Translations under genes and position numbers: made by a program
Notes under the pieces: model-generated
Told to the model about the DNA's origin: nothing
Seen by the model: only the letters and a program-made list of their open reading frames with translations
Database searches by the model: none
Assembly (NCBI GenBank): GCA_024639935.1
Contig: JAHEFZ010000003.1
Location: forward strand, 1 to 64,000
DNA: 64,000 nucleotides
Direction of reading: 5' to 3'
From: Microbacteriaceae bacterium
GTDB taxonomy: Bacteria > Actinomycetota > Actinomycetes > Actinomycetales > Microbacteriaceae
In this document: piece after piece, positions 31,682 through 52,932 of the stretch
How positions within the stretch are numbered: position 1 is the stretch's first letter
Layout of the letters: each line of letters opens with the position of its first letter

Positions 31682-32233
31682 ATGACCGACGACCGCTCTC
31701 AACTCGTTTCACTCATCAAAGACAACGCGGTTTTTTTCGGCGATTTCACCCTCACGAGCGGTGTTCAAGCGACGTATTACATCGACCTTCGTCGTGTCAG
31801 CCTTGATCACCGAGTTGCTCCGCTGATTGGCGACGTGATGGTCGACCTCATCGCCGACATCCCCGACATTGCGGCGGTGGGCGGACTCACGATGGGTGCT
31901 GATCCGATTGCATCGGCGGTACTCCACCGGGGGGTCCTGAAAGGCAAAAACTACGACGCGTTCGTCGTTCGCAAAGAACCCAAAGACCACGGCCGCGGAA
32001 AGCAAGTTGAAGGCCCCGAACTGGATGGCAAGCGCGTCGTTGTCCTCGAAGACACGTCCACGACCGGAGGATCACCCCTCGCCGCCGCCGCCGCTCTGGA
32101 ACGAGTGGGCGCGACTGTCGTTGCTATTGCGGTGGTTGTGGATCGGAATACGGGTGCTAAGGAAGCCATCGAAGCCGCCGGGTACGAATATCGTGCTGCG
32201 ATTTCGCTGAGTGATTTGGGTTTGCCGTCATGA
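31682..32233 (+). CDS. pyrE: Orotate phosphoribosyltransferase
   Basis: PyrE converts orotate and PRPP to OMP in pyrimidine synthesis. The 183-residue protein has FTLTSGVQATYYIDLRRV, GLTMGADPIASAV and the PRPP loop VVVLEDTSTTGGSPLAAA. Its last bases overlap the start of the next gene (ATGA), so that membrane protein is translationally coupled to it. Confidence 0.95.
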   Translation: MTDDRSQLVSLIKDNAVFFGDFTLTSGVQATYYIDLRRVSLDHRVAPLIGDVMVDLIADIPDIAAVGGLTMGADPIASAVLHRGVLKGKNYDAFVVRKEPKDHGRGKQVEGPELDGKRVVVLEDTSTTGGSPLAAAAALERVGATVVAIAVVVDRNTGAKEAIEAAGYEYRAAISLSDLGLPS

Positions 32234-33369
32234 CGGAAATGGAAAACGACGACCCCCGCGATGACGTCGATTGGCTCAAGGATGCGTTTGACCGTGCCGT
32301 CCAGGGCGACAACGGGACAGTTCCGGAATCCGCCCGACCAGCGGTCAACCCTTTCAGCGGCGGGGCCCCTGCTGGTGGCACAGTTCCCCCAGAGCCTGTC
32401 TTACCTGTTGAGAACACCGCTTCAAACACTCCGATCGTCCCGCACGATTCGATGGAGATGCCAGCAATCCGACACGACCACGACCTCGATTTCGAGACCG
32501 ATGACATGCCTCCGATTACCGCGTTCGAGTCAGTGTTACCGGTAGACCACTCAATTCCGTCGGTGGTGACCGATTACCCCCCAACCGAGACGCTTGATGC
32601 CGTTGATTTGCCGGCGACTGTTGCGCCGGAACCTATGGCAGCCAACGCGCAGTCGGATTCCCCGAGGGGAATCGAACAGATCGACGCACTCTTTTCGTCG
32701 ACCGCGACGCGTCCGATCACAAACTTGCCGGTCAGCCCACAGCCCAGGCCGCCGAAACCAATTCGCGAATCTAAACCGGCCGATGACGCGAGTTTTCGCA
32801 GGCGCTTGCTGTTGATTGTCGCCGGTATTGCCGTGGTCACGATTTCGATCGCAATGTTCTTTGCGGGCAGGTTCGTCGCCTCGAGCGCAATTGCACCAAC
32901 TCCTGAGATGACCGATTCACCGGCAGACCTGACGATGACACAACCGCCGGGCGAATATCCCTTCGCCCAACTTTTCGGTGGCGAATGTGTCGATCCGTTC
33001 GACACCGCGTGGGCCGTGACATTTACCGTGGTCGAGTGTGTGACTCCGCATCCCGCACAACTTGTTTATGTTGGTGATCTCGCTCTCGACGGGTCTTATC
33101 TTTCGTACCCAGGCGATGATCGAATTGGTAACGCTGCGATGGCGGAATGTTCTCGCAAAGGTGTCCTCAATCTGACGAGTGCAAAGAAATATTCTGACCT
33201 CACCCTGTCGGCCGCCTATCCCATTTCGTCTGAGGCGTGGGATTCGGGAGACAAGCGGTATTACTGTTTCGTGACTCTTTCGAGCGGTGCCGCGATTGAG
33301 GGGGACCTCGCCGGCAAATTGATTACGCAGGGGGTCGAGGGAACGCCGGAACCGATCGCGACCCCGTGA
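32230..33369 (+). CDS. Membrane-anchored protein with extracellular Cys4 septum-formation-like domain
   Basis: A 379-residue protein: a disordered acidic, Pro-rich N-terminal half, one transmembrane helix (about residues 194-215) and an extracellular domain (about 245-355). The domain has four spaced cysteines (GGECVDPF, VVECVTPHPAQLVYVGDL, AMAECS, YYCF) and resembles the Septum_form/DUF4190-associated family of actinobacteria. The same cysteine pattern occurs inside the RND transporter at 49330. Coupled to pyrE by 4 bp. Its 3' end overlaps the convergent methyltransferase gene by 47 bp. Function unknown; a cell-envelope role is inference. Confidence 0.75.
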   Translation: MTEMENDDPRDDVDWLKDAFDRAVQGDNGTVPESARPAVNPFSGGAPAGGTVPPEPVLPVENTASNTPIVPHDSMEMPAIRHDHDLDFETDDMPPITAFESVLPVDHSIPSVVTDYPPTETLDAVDLPATVAPEPMAANAQSDSPRGIEQIDALFSSTATRPITNLPVSPQPRPPKPIRESKPADDASFRRRLLLIVAGIAVVTISIAMFFAGRFVASSAIAPTPEMTDSPADLTMTQPPGEYPFAQLFGGECVDPFDTAWAVTFTVVECVTPHPAQLVYVGDLALDGSYLSYPGDDRIGNAAMAECSRKGVLNLTSAKKYSDLTLSAAYPISSEAWDSGDKRYYCFVTLSSGAAIEGDLAGKLITQGVEGTPEPIATP

Positions 33370-48806: not shown

Positions 48807-48880
48807 AATCGCCAGCGTACTCGTGTCGATTGCCCAAAAATTGGCGGTTAGGCTGTTATCACGTCACCAAAGGAGTGCCC

Positions 48881-49333
48881 GTGCCCGTAGTTCCGCTCTT
48901 CAGTCACGATGACCATCGGGGCGAGGTTGTTGAACGCTGGGGAGCGAAGGCGTGGACTCGTTCGTCGTCATGGTGGAATCACCTCGACGCAATCGGGCGC
49001 GATACGTTTCTTGCCGAAGGGGTCGCCCTCAAGGTTGAATATTTAGAGGCAAAAGAAGCGGAATTAGACGTAACGGACGCTGTTGTTGTTGCCCTCGTCC
49101 TGCGGCACAGGGCGTGGATCACGCAGGGTTGGGGCGGAGTCGAACCGACCGGAGAGCAATTCATCGGCCTCGGAAACATGTATGTCGAAGACGATCGCTT
49201 CGCTCGTCATTACGGCGGAATCGAAGGCGCTCGCTATGTTCGCGACGCAATCGTCGCATGGGTCGCCGCAGCCTCAACGCCTTCGGCGTCACCAAGCAGA
49301 ATTCGCCTCGCAAATAAAGGAACAACATCGTGA
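48881..49333 (+). CDS. Stand-alone TipAS-like ligand-binding protein
   Basis: A 150-residue helical protein resembling TipAS, the drug-binding half of the MerR regulator TipAL. HRAWITQGW and LGNMYVEDDRFARHYGG, followed by YVRDAIVAWV, match the conserved helices. No MerR helix-turn-helix is present, and there is no cysteine, so a TipAL-like covalent thiopeptide adduct is not possible. GTG 48881 is chosen because AAAGGAG ends at 48875. Its stop overlaps the start of the RND transporter (GTGA). A role as drug binder or modulator of the pump is inference. Confidence 0.72.
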   Translation: MPVVPLFSHDDHRGEVVERWGAKAWTRSSSWWNHLDAIGRDTFLAEGVALKVEYLEAKEAELDVTDAVVVALVLRHRAWITQGWGGVEPTGEQFIGLGNMYVEDDRFARHYGGIEGARYVRDAIVAWVAAASTPSASPSRIRLANKGTTS

Positions 49334-52300
49334 ACCGACTCGCCATTTTTAGTCTCAGGAACCGAGCACTTATCGCCTTGGTCACGGTTGTTGTTGCGAT
49401 ATTCGGTGGCATCGCAATGTCGCTTCTCAAACTCGAATTGATACCCTCGATTACTTTTCCTCAACTCGTCGTCGTGACGAACTACCCCGGCGCATCACCT
49501 GTCATCGTCGAAAAAGAGGTGTCGACTCCAATCGAGACGGCGATTCAGGGTGTTAACGGACTCGAATCGACGACCGCAACATCGCAAAACGGACTGTCTC
49601 AGGTCACGGCGGCATTTGCATACGGCACGAGTCTTGAATCGGCGGAACAAAAAGTTCAACTTGCAATCAACCGCATTTCGAATCTGCTACCCGCCGGAAT
49701 CGAGCCGCGGGTTATCGCCGGGTCATTTTCGGATATACCGGTTCTGCAATTGGCGGTGACGAGCGATCTCGCCCCCGATCAACTGAACCAAGCGCTGAAA
49801 GACATCGCGGTAAAAGAACTGACCAAGTTGGAGGGGGTCCGAGACGCTGCGGTGTTTGGCGCTAACGGCGAACACGTCGCCATCGTTCCCGATGATAAAG
49901 AGTTGGAACGTCTAGGGCTGACGACGACCGACATTCAAACCGCCCTTCAGACTGCCGGAATTCGAATTGGAGCGGGCAGCGTGATGTCCGCGAAGGGCGA
50001 ACTGTCGATTGTGTCGGGAACCCCACTCGCGAGCCTCCCCGATATTCGGTCTGTTCCCGTGACGATTCCGTACAAGCCGCCGACAGTTACCGTTCCGAAA
50101 CCGCCAACGGTACCGACCTTTCCGACCATCGAGGTAACTCCCCGATCGAACGGAGAATGGAGTTGGGATGAGCTCAACGGTGGTGAGTGTCTCGAGCCGT
50201 ATACGGACGCGAACGAGAACACATACACCGTCGTCGATTGTGACGAGGCGCACTCGGCGCAACTCGTCCGCATCGGAGACCTGCGTGTTGATGCGGGAAT
50301 CCCGATTTACCCGGGTGACGCTGCGGTTGGTCCTATTGCCATGGGAGAGTGTTACGCATCGGGTGTCATTTCCGCGTCGGGGATTGCCGCCTACCCAACC
50401 TTGACTACAGATTTTCGATACCCGACGAGCCAGGCACAGTGGAATAAGGGTGACACGTTTTATTACTGCTTCGCGCACGCCAATCCGATAGCAGATCTCA
50501 CGGAAAGTGTTGCGGGCGGGAAGGTGAACACCATTGTTCCCGCCGCCCCCGCTTTCCCGGGAGCATCAACGACCAGTTCGTCGTCATTCCCGTCGGCCGG
50601 CACGACCACAATTCCCACAACGCGCTCGGTCACCACGATCGGCGACATTGCGCGAGTGTCGATCCAACCTGACGTCATCACGTCCATTTCACGAGTCAAC
50701 GGGCAGCCCTCGCTGACTCTTGCGATTACGAAACGTGCCGATGCGAACACAGTGGACGTGTCCCGTGTGGTCGTCGCGGCCCTGCCCGCGATCACGGACC
50801 TGCTCGGTAATGGCACCGCGTTCACCGTCGTCTTTAATCAAGCGCCGTTCATCGAAAAAAGCATCGATTCACTCGCGGTGGAAGGGCTCCTCGGGCTGAT
50901 TTTCGCCATCATCGTGATTCTCGTCTTCCTGTTGTCGATTCGTTCGACGCTCGTAACCGCGGTGTCGATCCCGACCTCCCTTCTTCTCACTTTCATCGGG
51001 ATGTGGGCGAGTAATTTCTCACTCAACATCCTCACCATTGGTGCCGTGACTATCTCGATCGGTCGAGTCGTCGACGACTCGATTGTGGTCGTCGAGAACA
51101 TCAAGCGCCATCTCTCGCTCGGCGAAGAGCGAATGGACGCTATCCGCACGGCGGTGAAAGAGGTCGCCACCGCGGTCACCGCGTCGACCATCACCACTGT
51201 CGCCGTGTTCCTTCCGTTGGCGTTTGTTGGCGGTTTGTCTGGCGAACTGTTCAAGCCCTTTGCTGTAACCGTGACAATCGCACTCCTCGCGTCGTTGTTC
51301 GTTTCGCTCACGATTGTTCCCGTTCTCGCCTATTGGTTCCTCGGCGACAACAAGAAAAAGAAGAAATCAACAAAGCCGGTACGCGAGGAAAACGACGTCC
51401 TGCAACGTGGATATCGCCCCATTGTCGGTTGGACCATTACGCACCCGCTTGCGACGATGCTTATCGCAATCCTCACACTGGGTGGTACGTTCGCACTCGT
51501 TCCGCTGATGAAGACCAACTTCGTCGGGGGCAGCGGTCAGTCAACGATTACGCTGACCCACTCGACGCCCGGCGGACTGACCCTCATGGACCGCTCGGCC
51601 GTGGCCGAAGACGTCGAAGCGAAACTCCTGGAGTACCCCGGAATTGAGACCGTTCAGATATCGATTGGTGGCGGAAACGGTTTCGCGGCGTTCAACGGCC
51701 AGGCGGGCAACATTATTTACCAAATCACCATCGCGGATGATGTGGACGCCGATCTCGTGCGCGCCGAAGTAACGCGAGACTTGGAAACAATTACTGACAC
51801 GGGGAAGATCGCGTCCGCTCAGGGCGGCGCCTTCGGTTCGCAGACCATCGATATCACCGTCAAAGCGCCGTCGGAAGAGACGCTCGCTGCGGTAACTGCC
51901 GACATCGCCGCGGCGGTAACCGAAACCAAGGCTGCGGACAGTGTTACCACGTCGCTCGATGACACGCAGTCTTACATTTCGATTTCCATCAAGCGAAGAG
52001 AAGCGGCGAAATACGCTCTGTCCGAGGTTCTGATTGGCCGGACACTGTCGGGGCTTATTGCCCCCAGCGCGATTGGTCAGGTTGTGATCGACGATGTCAC
52101 GATGGACCTTGTCGTCGAAACGCAGAATTCGCCAGAAACGCTTGGCGAATTGCGGAAAATGAAAATCACGACACCACTGGGCGCCAAGGTTCTTCTGTCC
52201 AAGGTGGCAACAGTCGGGATCACGGAAACCGCTGCGTCGCGAACGACCGAGCGTGGCGTGCTGTCCGCGTCCATTGCGGTCACTCCAACGTCGGACAACC

Positions 52301-52932
52301 TCTCGGAATCGACCGCGGCCGTCAACACTGCGCTCGCGAGCGTCGAGTTGCCGTCGGGGACCACGGCCACGGTAGGTGGTGTCGCCCAAGACCAGGTCGA
52401 GTCCTTCCAGCAACTGGGTCTTGCCCTGCTCGCGGCCATCTTGATTGTGTACGTCGTCATGGTGGCCACCTTCCGATCGTTGCGTCAACCACTGCTGCTG
52501 CTCGTCTCGATTCCGTTCGCGGCGACCGGCGCAATAGCGCTCCAGATCATTTCGGGAATACCTCTGGGGATCTCGTCGCTGATCGGATTGCTGATGCTCG
52601 TTGGAATCGTGGTCACGAACGCCATCGTTCTCATTGATCTCGTGAATCAGTATCGCGAGCGGGGCGCATCAGTCATCGACTCGTTGCTGGACGGAACGAG
52701 TCGACGCGTTCGGCCCGTGCTGATGACGGCGCTCGCGACGGTGTTCGCACTCACGCCTCTCGCGACCGGTGTGACAGGCAGCGGTGGGTTCATCTCACAG
52801 CCTCTTGCGATCGTCGTGATCGGCGGCTTGCTTTCGTCGACAATTCTGACTCTGCTCGTACTGCCCGCGCTCTATTCACTCGTTGAAGGGCGCAAGGAAC
52901 GCAGGGCGGTCCGTCGAGCGCGCAAGGCCTAG
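49330..52932 (+). CDS. RND (HAE1-like) exporter with inserted Cys4 extracytoplasmic domain
   Basis: A 1200-residue proton-driven RND transporter. The first helix is at about residues 12-32, and the HAE1 signature GRVVDDSIVVVENIKRH near residue 578 carries the proton-relay Asp pair. The C-terminal half has the second helical bundle. An insertion of about 190 residues (244-435) interrupts the first porter region. It has Pro/Thr-rich linkers around a domain with four cysteines (GGECLEPY, VVDCDEAHSAQL, MGECYA, YYCFAH), the same pattern as in the protein at 32230. Coupled to the TipAS-like gene. The substrate is unknown. Confidence 0.88.
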   Translation: MNRLAIFSLRNRALIALVTVVVAIFGGIAMSLLKLELIPSITFPQLVVVTNYPGASPVIVEKEVSTPIETAIQGVNGLESTTATSQNGLSQVTAAFAYGTSLESAEQKVQLAINRISNLLPAGIEPRVIAGSFSDIPVLQLAVTSDLAPDQLNQALKDIAVKELTKLEGVRDAAVFGANGEHVAIVPDDKELERLGLTTTDIQTALQTAGIRIGAGSVMSAKGELSIVSGTPLASLPDIRSVPVTIPYKPPTVTVPKPPTVPTFPTIEVTPRSNGEWSWDELNGGECLEPYTDANENTYTVVDCDEAHSAQLVRIGDLRVDAGIPIYPGDAAVGPIAMGECYASGVISASGIAAYPTLTTDFRYPTSQAQWNKGDTFYYCFAHANPIADLTESVAGGKVNTIVPAAPAFPGASTTSSSSFPSAGTTTIPTTRSVTTIGDIARVSIQPDVITSISRVNGQPSLTLAITKRADANTVDVSRVVVAALPAITDLLGNGTAFTVVFNQAPFIEKSIDSLAVEGLLGLIFAIIVILVFLLSIRSTLVTAVSIPTSLLLTFIGMWASNFSLNILTIGAVTISIGRVVDDSIVVVENIKRHLSLGEERMDAIRTAVKEVATAVTASTITTVAVFLPLAFVGGLSGELFKPFAVTVTIALLASLFVSLTIVPVLAYWFLGDNKKKKKSTKPVREENDVLQRGYRPIVGWTITHPLATMLIAILTLGGTFALVPLMKTNFVGGSGQSTITLTHSTPGGLTLMDRSAVAEDVEAKLLEYPGIETVQISIGGGNGFAAFNGQAGNIIYQITIADDVDADLVRAEVTRDLETITDTGKIASAQGGAFGSQTIDITVKAPSEETLAAVTADIAAAVTETKAADSVTTSLDDTQSYISISIKRREAAKYALSEVLIGRTLSGLIAPSAIGQVVIDDVTMDLVVETQNSPETLGELRKMKITTPLGAKVLLSKVATVGITETAASRTTERGVLSASIAVTPTSDNLSESTAAVNTALASVELPSGTTATVGGVAQDQVESFQQLGLALLAAILIVYVVMVATFRSLRQPLLLLVSIPFAATGAIALQIISGIPLGISSLIGLLMLVGIVVTNAIVLIDLVNQYRERGASVIDSLLDGTSRRVRPVLMTALATVFALTPLATGVTGSGGFISQPLAIVVIGGLLSSTILTLLVLPALYSLVEGRKERRAVRRARKA

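Follow-up and report, generated by a model that had tools for sequence, protein, structure and literature searches.

An RND exporter of Microbacteriaceae with a Cys4 domain inserted at its docking hairpin

In a Microbacteriaceae bacterium, an RND exporter of the AcrB/ACR_tran type is interrupted by some 190 extra residues, which form a Cys4 domain between two linkers and which, by alignment, interrupt a vertical beta-hairpin, that of the docking (funnel) subdomain DN. The same domain occurs in a stand-alone single-pass membrane protein encoded nearby, and the insertion was probably gained only once, within a single genus. While the architecture and the evolutionary history of the insert-bearing pump are well supported, the role of the domain can be proposed only tentatively. 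The window analysed, i.e., positions 1 to 64,000 of contig JAHEFZ010000003.1, provides all coordinates given here, and the features concerned are the following.

32230-33369, forward strand: stand-alone paralogue of 379 amino acids, with a TM at about 193-211 and a C-terminal Cys4 domain (Cys 253, 270, 307, 346)
32902-33348, forward strand: part of the stand-alone protein that corresponds to the insert (36% identity, E 1.9e-26)
48830-49333, forward strand: TipAS (antibiotic-recognition) domain protein, no HTH detected, with a stop codon that overlaps the start of the RND gene (GTGA)
49330-52932, forward strand: RND exporter gene with the inserted domain, 1200 amino acids, GTG start
49330-50058, forward strand: N-terminal RND part (TM1, porter, start of the docking subdomain), residues 1-243, from alignment to solved RND pumps
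50059-50151, forward strand: 5' Pro/Thr-rich insert linker, residues 244-274, rough pairwise dN/dS about 0.24
50152-50535, forward strand: inserted Cys4 domain, Septum_form-like, residues 275-402 (Cys 287, 304, 341, 380), from the isolated model, rough dN/dS about 0.16
50536-50634, forward strand: 3' Ser/Thr/Pro/Ala-rich insert linker, residues 403-435, low pLDDT in the isolated model
50635-52929, forward strand: remaining RND part (DN hairpin return strand, TM2-12, C-terminal porter and docking subdomains), from ACR_tran and the alignment to solved pumps

The exporter is read from a single frame with no internal stop, and the family profile ACR_tran (PF00873) matches it on both sides of the insert in two stretches, the best one covering residues 434-1185, with 660 bits against a cut-off of 28. 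When compared to solved RND pumps, residues 10-241 are aligned (the alignment ending at about 233-241), and the match resumes at about 429-437, leaving the residues in between unmatched. As such, the extra stretch (244-435) first spotted in the sequence-only reading is borne out, together with its Pro/Thr/Ser-rich linkers on both flanks (244-274 and 403-435) and its four cysteines, which prove to be the only ones of the whole protein; the RND core is free of cysteines throughout the 29 aligned RNDs. The Asp-Asp pair D582-D583, which we take to be the counterpart of the proton-relay pair in TM4 of AcrB, is of TM4 type and invariant across these 29 sequences. The NCBIfam cut-offs for RND permease subfamilies are missed, with 548.8 bits against the 1250 of RND_permease_2 and lower scores for the other subfamilies.

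The insertion is present in one open frame in seven further congeneric genomes and absent from four others, in which 19 residues stand instead at the same locus; two genomes (G011 and G014) offered broken contigs only, among which the contig of L017 stops inside the 5' linker. Scanning the contigs of named genomes retrieved the same insertion in seven MAGs, most labelled Microbacteriaceae, Micrococcales or Actinomycetota, and match values indicate these are the same seven congeneric genomes under their public names, originating from different studies. An assembly or frameshift artefact fusing two genes, for which a paralogous sequence just 16 kb off on the same contig could speak, is thus refuted, or at best extremely improbable, since the junctions are identical in these independent assemblies, the insert shares just 36% identity with its neighbouring paralogue and the frame is open throughout. 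The suspicion of a random assembly artefact, which had been raised along with the original observation, is thereby answered, all the more since the insert is under purifying selection (see below). From record titles mentioning a reservoir and a lake bloom, the host organisms are presumably freshwater bacteria. Of note, the MAG records titled Gulosibacter massiliensis (L080, L083) have the same locus as members of this genus with genomes of about 1.2 Mb, and their species label is probably wrong.

Considering the domain itself, its nearest relatives are stand-alone single-pass proteins, and the insert is matched in 211 of 300 genomes of the family. Within the window, the insert and the stand-alone protein share an identical cysteine spacing (17/37/39), but the latter has its own TM, a cytoplasmic N-terminal region and a separate gene, and is retained beside the insert. 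Residues common to the inserts and to at least 90% of the stand-alone domains are G275, L282, GGEC284-287, C304, H308, P328, G329, C341, W371, G374 and C380, which is what retention of both fold and binding would predict. Over the 43 aligned sequences, 12 columns are invariant, among them those of the four Cys, His308 and Trp371, and the pump copy thus keeps the hallmark residues of the family; the four Cys are presumably engaged in disulfides. On a shared contig, the stand-alone gene lies about 16-18 kb from the RND gene in the genus and 42-135 kb in other genera. In all 17 genomes listing both genes on one contig, they occupy one chromosomal stretch, 16-135 kb apart.

In terms of protein family, the profile Septum_form (PF13845) matches residues 284-380 only, with 19.7 bits for the whole protein and 24.2 bits for the insert, i.e., below the gathering cut-off of 25. 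Nonetheless, 40 of the 43 aligned relatives match the C-terminal half of this profile (131-227) at E 0.01 or better, with a best value of 1.6e-9, and in this respect homology to recognised members is found. The suggested likeness to Septum_form therefore stands as a real relationship, whereas formal membership of the insert does not; Septum_form is the nearest named family, and both the insert and the stand-alone paralogue are its sub-threshold relatives. The link of Septum_form with division has its source in an unvalidated proposal that Rv3835 is ZipA-like (PMC3989709), and Septum_form proteins, e.g., of the Rv3835 family, are single-pass, whereas the insert is embedded in a transporter.

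An isolated AlphaFold2 model of the insert (43 aligned sequences) was confident and reached block pLDDT values of mostly 92-97 in the core, with low values in the 3' linker. Comparing this model to the PDB and to viral models with Foldseek gave no match at E 0.001 or better, which by itself does not prove a new fold, and VIA-align gave no convincing match (best Z 2.5); likewise, the insert sequence found no match in the PDB, and its profile only a chance one (E 0.26). In the full-length AlphaFold2 model (29 sequences), mean pLDDT was 61.8 with insert blocks at about 24-48, which is too weak to place the domain relative to the funnel. Taken together with the paralogue in the window and the phylogeny, the isolated model upholds the original view of a whole folded Cys4 domain added to an RND exporter on its extracytoplasmic face.

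To which part of the pump the domain is attached was established with an insert-free congener (L014), which aligns across the hairpin to solved pumps and places the insertion at about AcrB 250-260 (equivalent to about 253-260). The insertion site is thus the vertical beta-hairpin of DN, and not the porter domain as initially proposed. In the weak full-length model, strands 243-245 and 434-436 flank the insert, and their mirror in the C-terminal half (945-947 and 953-955) has a short turn. For AcrB, a cross-link between S258 in this hairpin and S273 of AcrA has been described, together with the importance of the hairpin for assembling the pump (PMC5404916), and a docking model puts D256, also in this hairpin, close to TolC (PMC2292822). 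Among 21 RNDs of the genus and family that lack the insert, the hairpin loop ranges from 7 to 55 residues and is often Gly/Ala/Ser/Pro-rich, and it is similarly variable in other actinomycetes, up to about 53 residues longer than in L014. The DN hairpin of actinomycete RNDs thus appears as a hypervariable Gly/Ala/Ser/Pro/Gln-rich loop, exceeding 50 residues in some lineages (L062, L065, L069, L076, L109-L112). Profile searches of the genome, about 96% complete, were made for PF02321 and PF16576 alone and found neither an OEP channel (PF02321) nor an HlyD_D23 adaptor (PF16576), with positive controls; the pair of genes that marks a tripartite HAE-1 system, i.e., OEP channel and adaptor in the same genome, was thus not found for these two profiles. 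With no such channel or adaptor found and a hypervariable loop in related pumps, the site appears free to accept an insertion once docking is unneeded.

Regarding the origin of the insert, a pump tree built on the core, with insert columns removed, gathers the insert-bearing RNDs in a single clade (100/100) that lies within the insert-free members of the genus, and the other members of the family fall outside. From this nested position, one gain within the genus is the simplest history, and it would explain why earlier-branching congeners are devoid of the insert; no insert was found in RNDs outside the genus among the best loci listed from 100 genomes of the family and about 148 of the class. 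The condition named at the outset as refuting, that close homologues lack the insert, thus applies in part (four congeners lack it and seven carry it), but the pattern is that of a single nested gain and not of an artefact. In the domain tree, the inserts join the stand-alone proteins of the genus at 92/81, with an alternative grouping not rejected (p-AU 0.28), and the genus's own stand-alone gene is therefore a likely, though not proven, donor. A stronger statement, taking this gene as the proven donor, was dropped on these grounds, the tree favouring it without excluding the alternative.

Purifying selection acts on the inserted domain. In pairwise comparisons of the seven most closely related genes with the insert, dN/dS was about 0.16 in the domain, 0.21-0.24 in the linkers and 0.04-0.06 in the pump core, these values being rough with dS near 1. 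At non-synonymous sites, the insert evolves about four times faster (dN about 0.19 in the domain vs about 0.05 in the core), and identity between insert copies goes down to about 49%, yet no copy has lost any of the four Cys, the residues typical of the family or the open frame.

As for the function, the favoured reading, though at somewhat less than an even chance, is that the insert acts as a second copy of the ectodomain at the pump mouth, serving as an outward recognition or tether module of an otherwise usual RND transporter. In such a scenario, an AcrB-type pump of a single-membrane actinobacterium would have gained once a copy of the Cys4 ectodomain of a neighbouring single-pass membrane protein, landing in the very loop of DN which contacts AcrA and TolC in Gram-negative pumps. 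Assuming an RND trimer, three domains would surround the exit funnel on flexible linkers, where they may bind the target of the stand-alone protein, putatively the cell wall or a partner in division or in the envelope, and in this way determine where the pump mouth lies, transport itself following an ordinary RND cycle. This proposal is weakened by the unvalidated division link of Septum_form, by the faster evolution of the domain relative to the core, by the poor full-length model in the insert and by a donor within the genus that is favoured only.

Alternatively, the domain could be an exit-funnel cap or a ligand sensor, capturing or sensing a substrate or a cell-wall precursor and altering efflux in the manner of a built-in adaptor, which we consider doubtful. 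The role of the DN hairpin as AcrA-AcrB contact point in Gram-negative pumps (PMC5404916) and the invariance of His308 and Trp371 would fit such a device, but these two positions are just as conserved in the stand-alone protein and thus not pump-specific, and the long and variable linkers argue against tight mechanical coupling. The gene directly upstream encodes a TipAS protein, possibly a drug-binding partner of the pump, and its overlap with the RND start suggests the pump is drug-related and plausibly handles antibiotics, which would also suit a cap or sensor. However, a TipAS match lies directly upstream of the RND gene in insert-bearing and insert-free congeners alike wherever flanking sequence is present, and the neighbourhood, i.e., TipAS upstream and often a crcB-like gene, is common to both; the insert is therefore not explained by TipAS.

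It is also rather unlikely that the domain is a tolerated passenger, accepted without function in the pump because single-membrane bacteria place no constraint on the docking loop. Such a passenger would be in line with the highly variable length and sequence of this loop in the family and with the fourfold faster non-synonymous change of the insert relative to the core. On the contrary, it speaks against a passenger that every copy retains its frame, the four Cys and the residues typical of the family, and so does the dN/dS of about 0.16 (a rough value), which indicates the fold is maintained, even if this could in part reflect nothing more than selection against misfolding.

Returning to the recognition or tether module, a broader and less probable view is that, in single-membrane bacteria, the vacant adaptor/TolC-docking hairpin has been turned into a socket for an envelope-binding domain, giving a self-contained pump with exit-mouth tethers that replace the tripartite assembly. 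Compared to AcrB-type exporters (HAE-1, ACR_tran PF00873), the pump of the window is alike in its match on both sides, predicted TM pattern, Asp-Asp pair, and porter and docking subdomains, but differs by a globular domain of about 190 amino acids including linkers in the DN hairpin, by having no TolC-type channel or HlyD_D23 adaptor found in its genome and by missing the NCBIfam subfamily cut-offs. ApeX, a Gram-positive RND exporter, likewise works without an outer-membrane channel, but is described as having no docking domain (PMC5596346), whereas the pump of the window has a docking hairpin, in expanded form. In the open-access literature, to which the search was limited, no account of an RND pump carrying an inserted domain in the DN hairpin was found, in agreement with what had been surmised at the outset. 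The mechanism of RND pumps operating without adaptor and outer-membrane channel is poorly known, and the genus offers a natural experiment in this regard, with orthologous pumps at the same locus, with or without one docking-site domain. It could also open a first route to the function of the Septum_form-like domain, a common one in this actinobacterial family, for which no established role was found.
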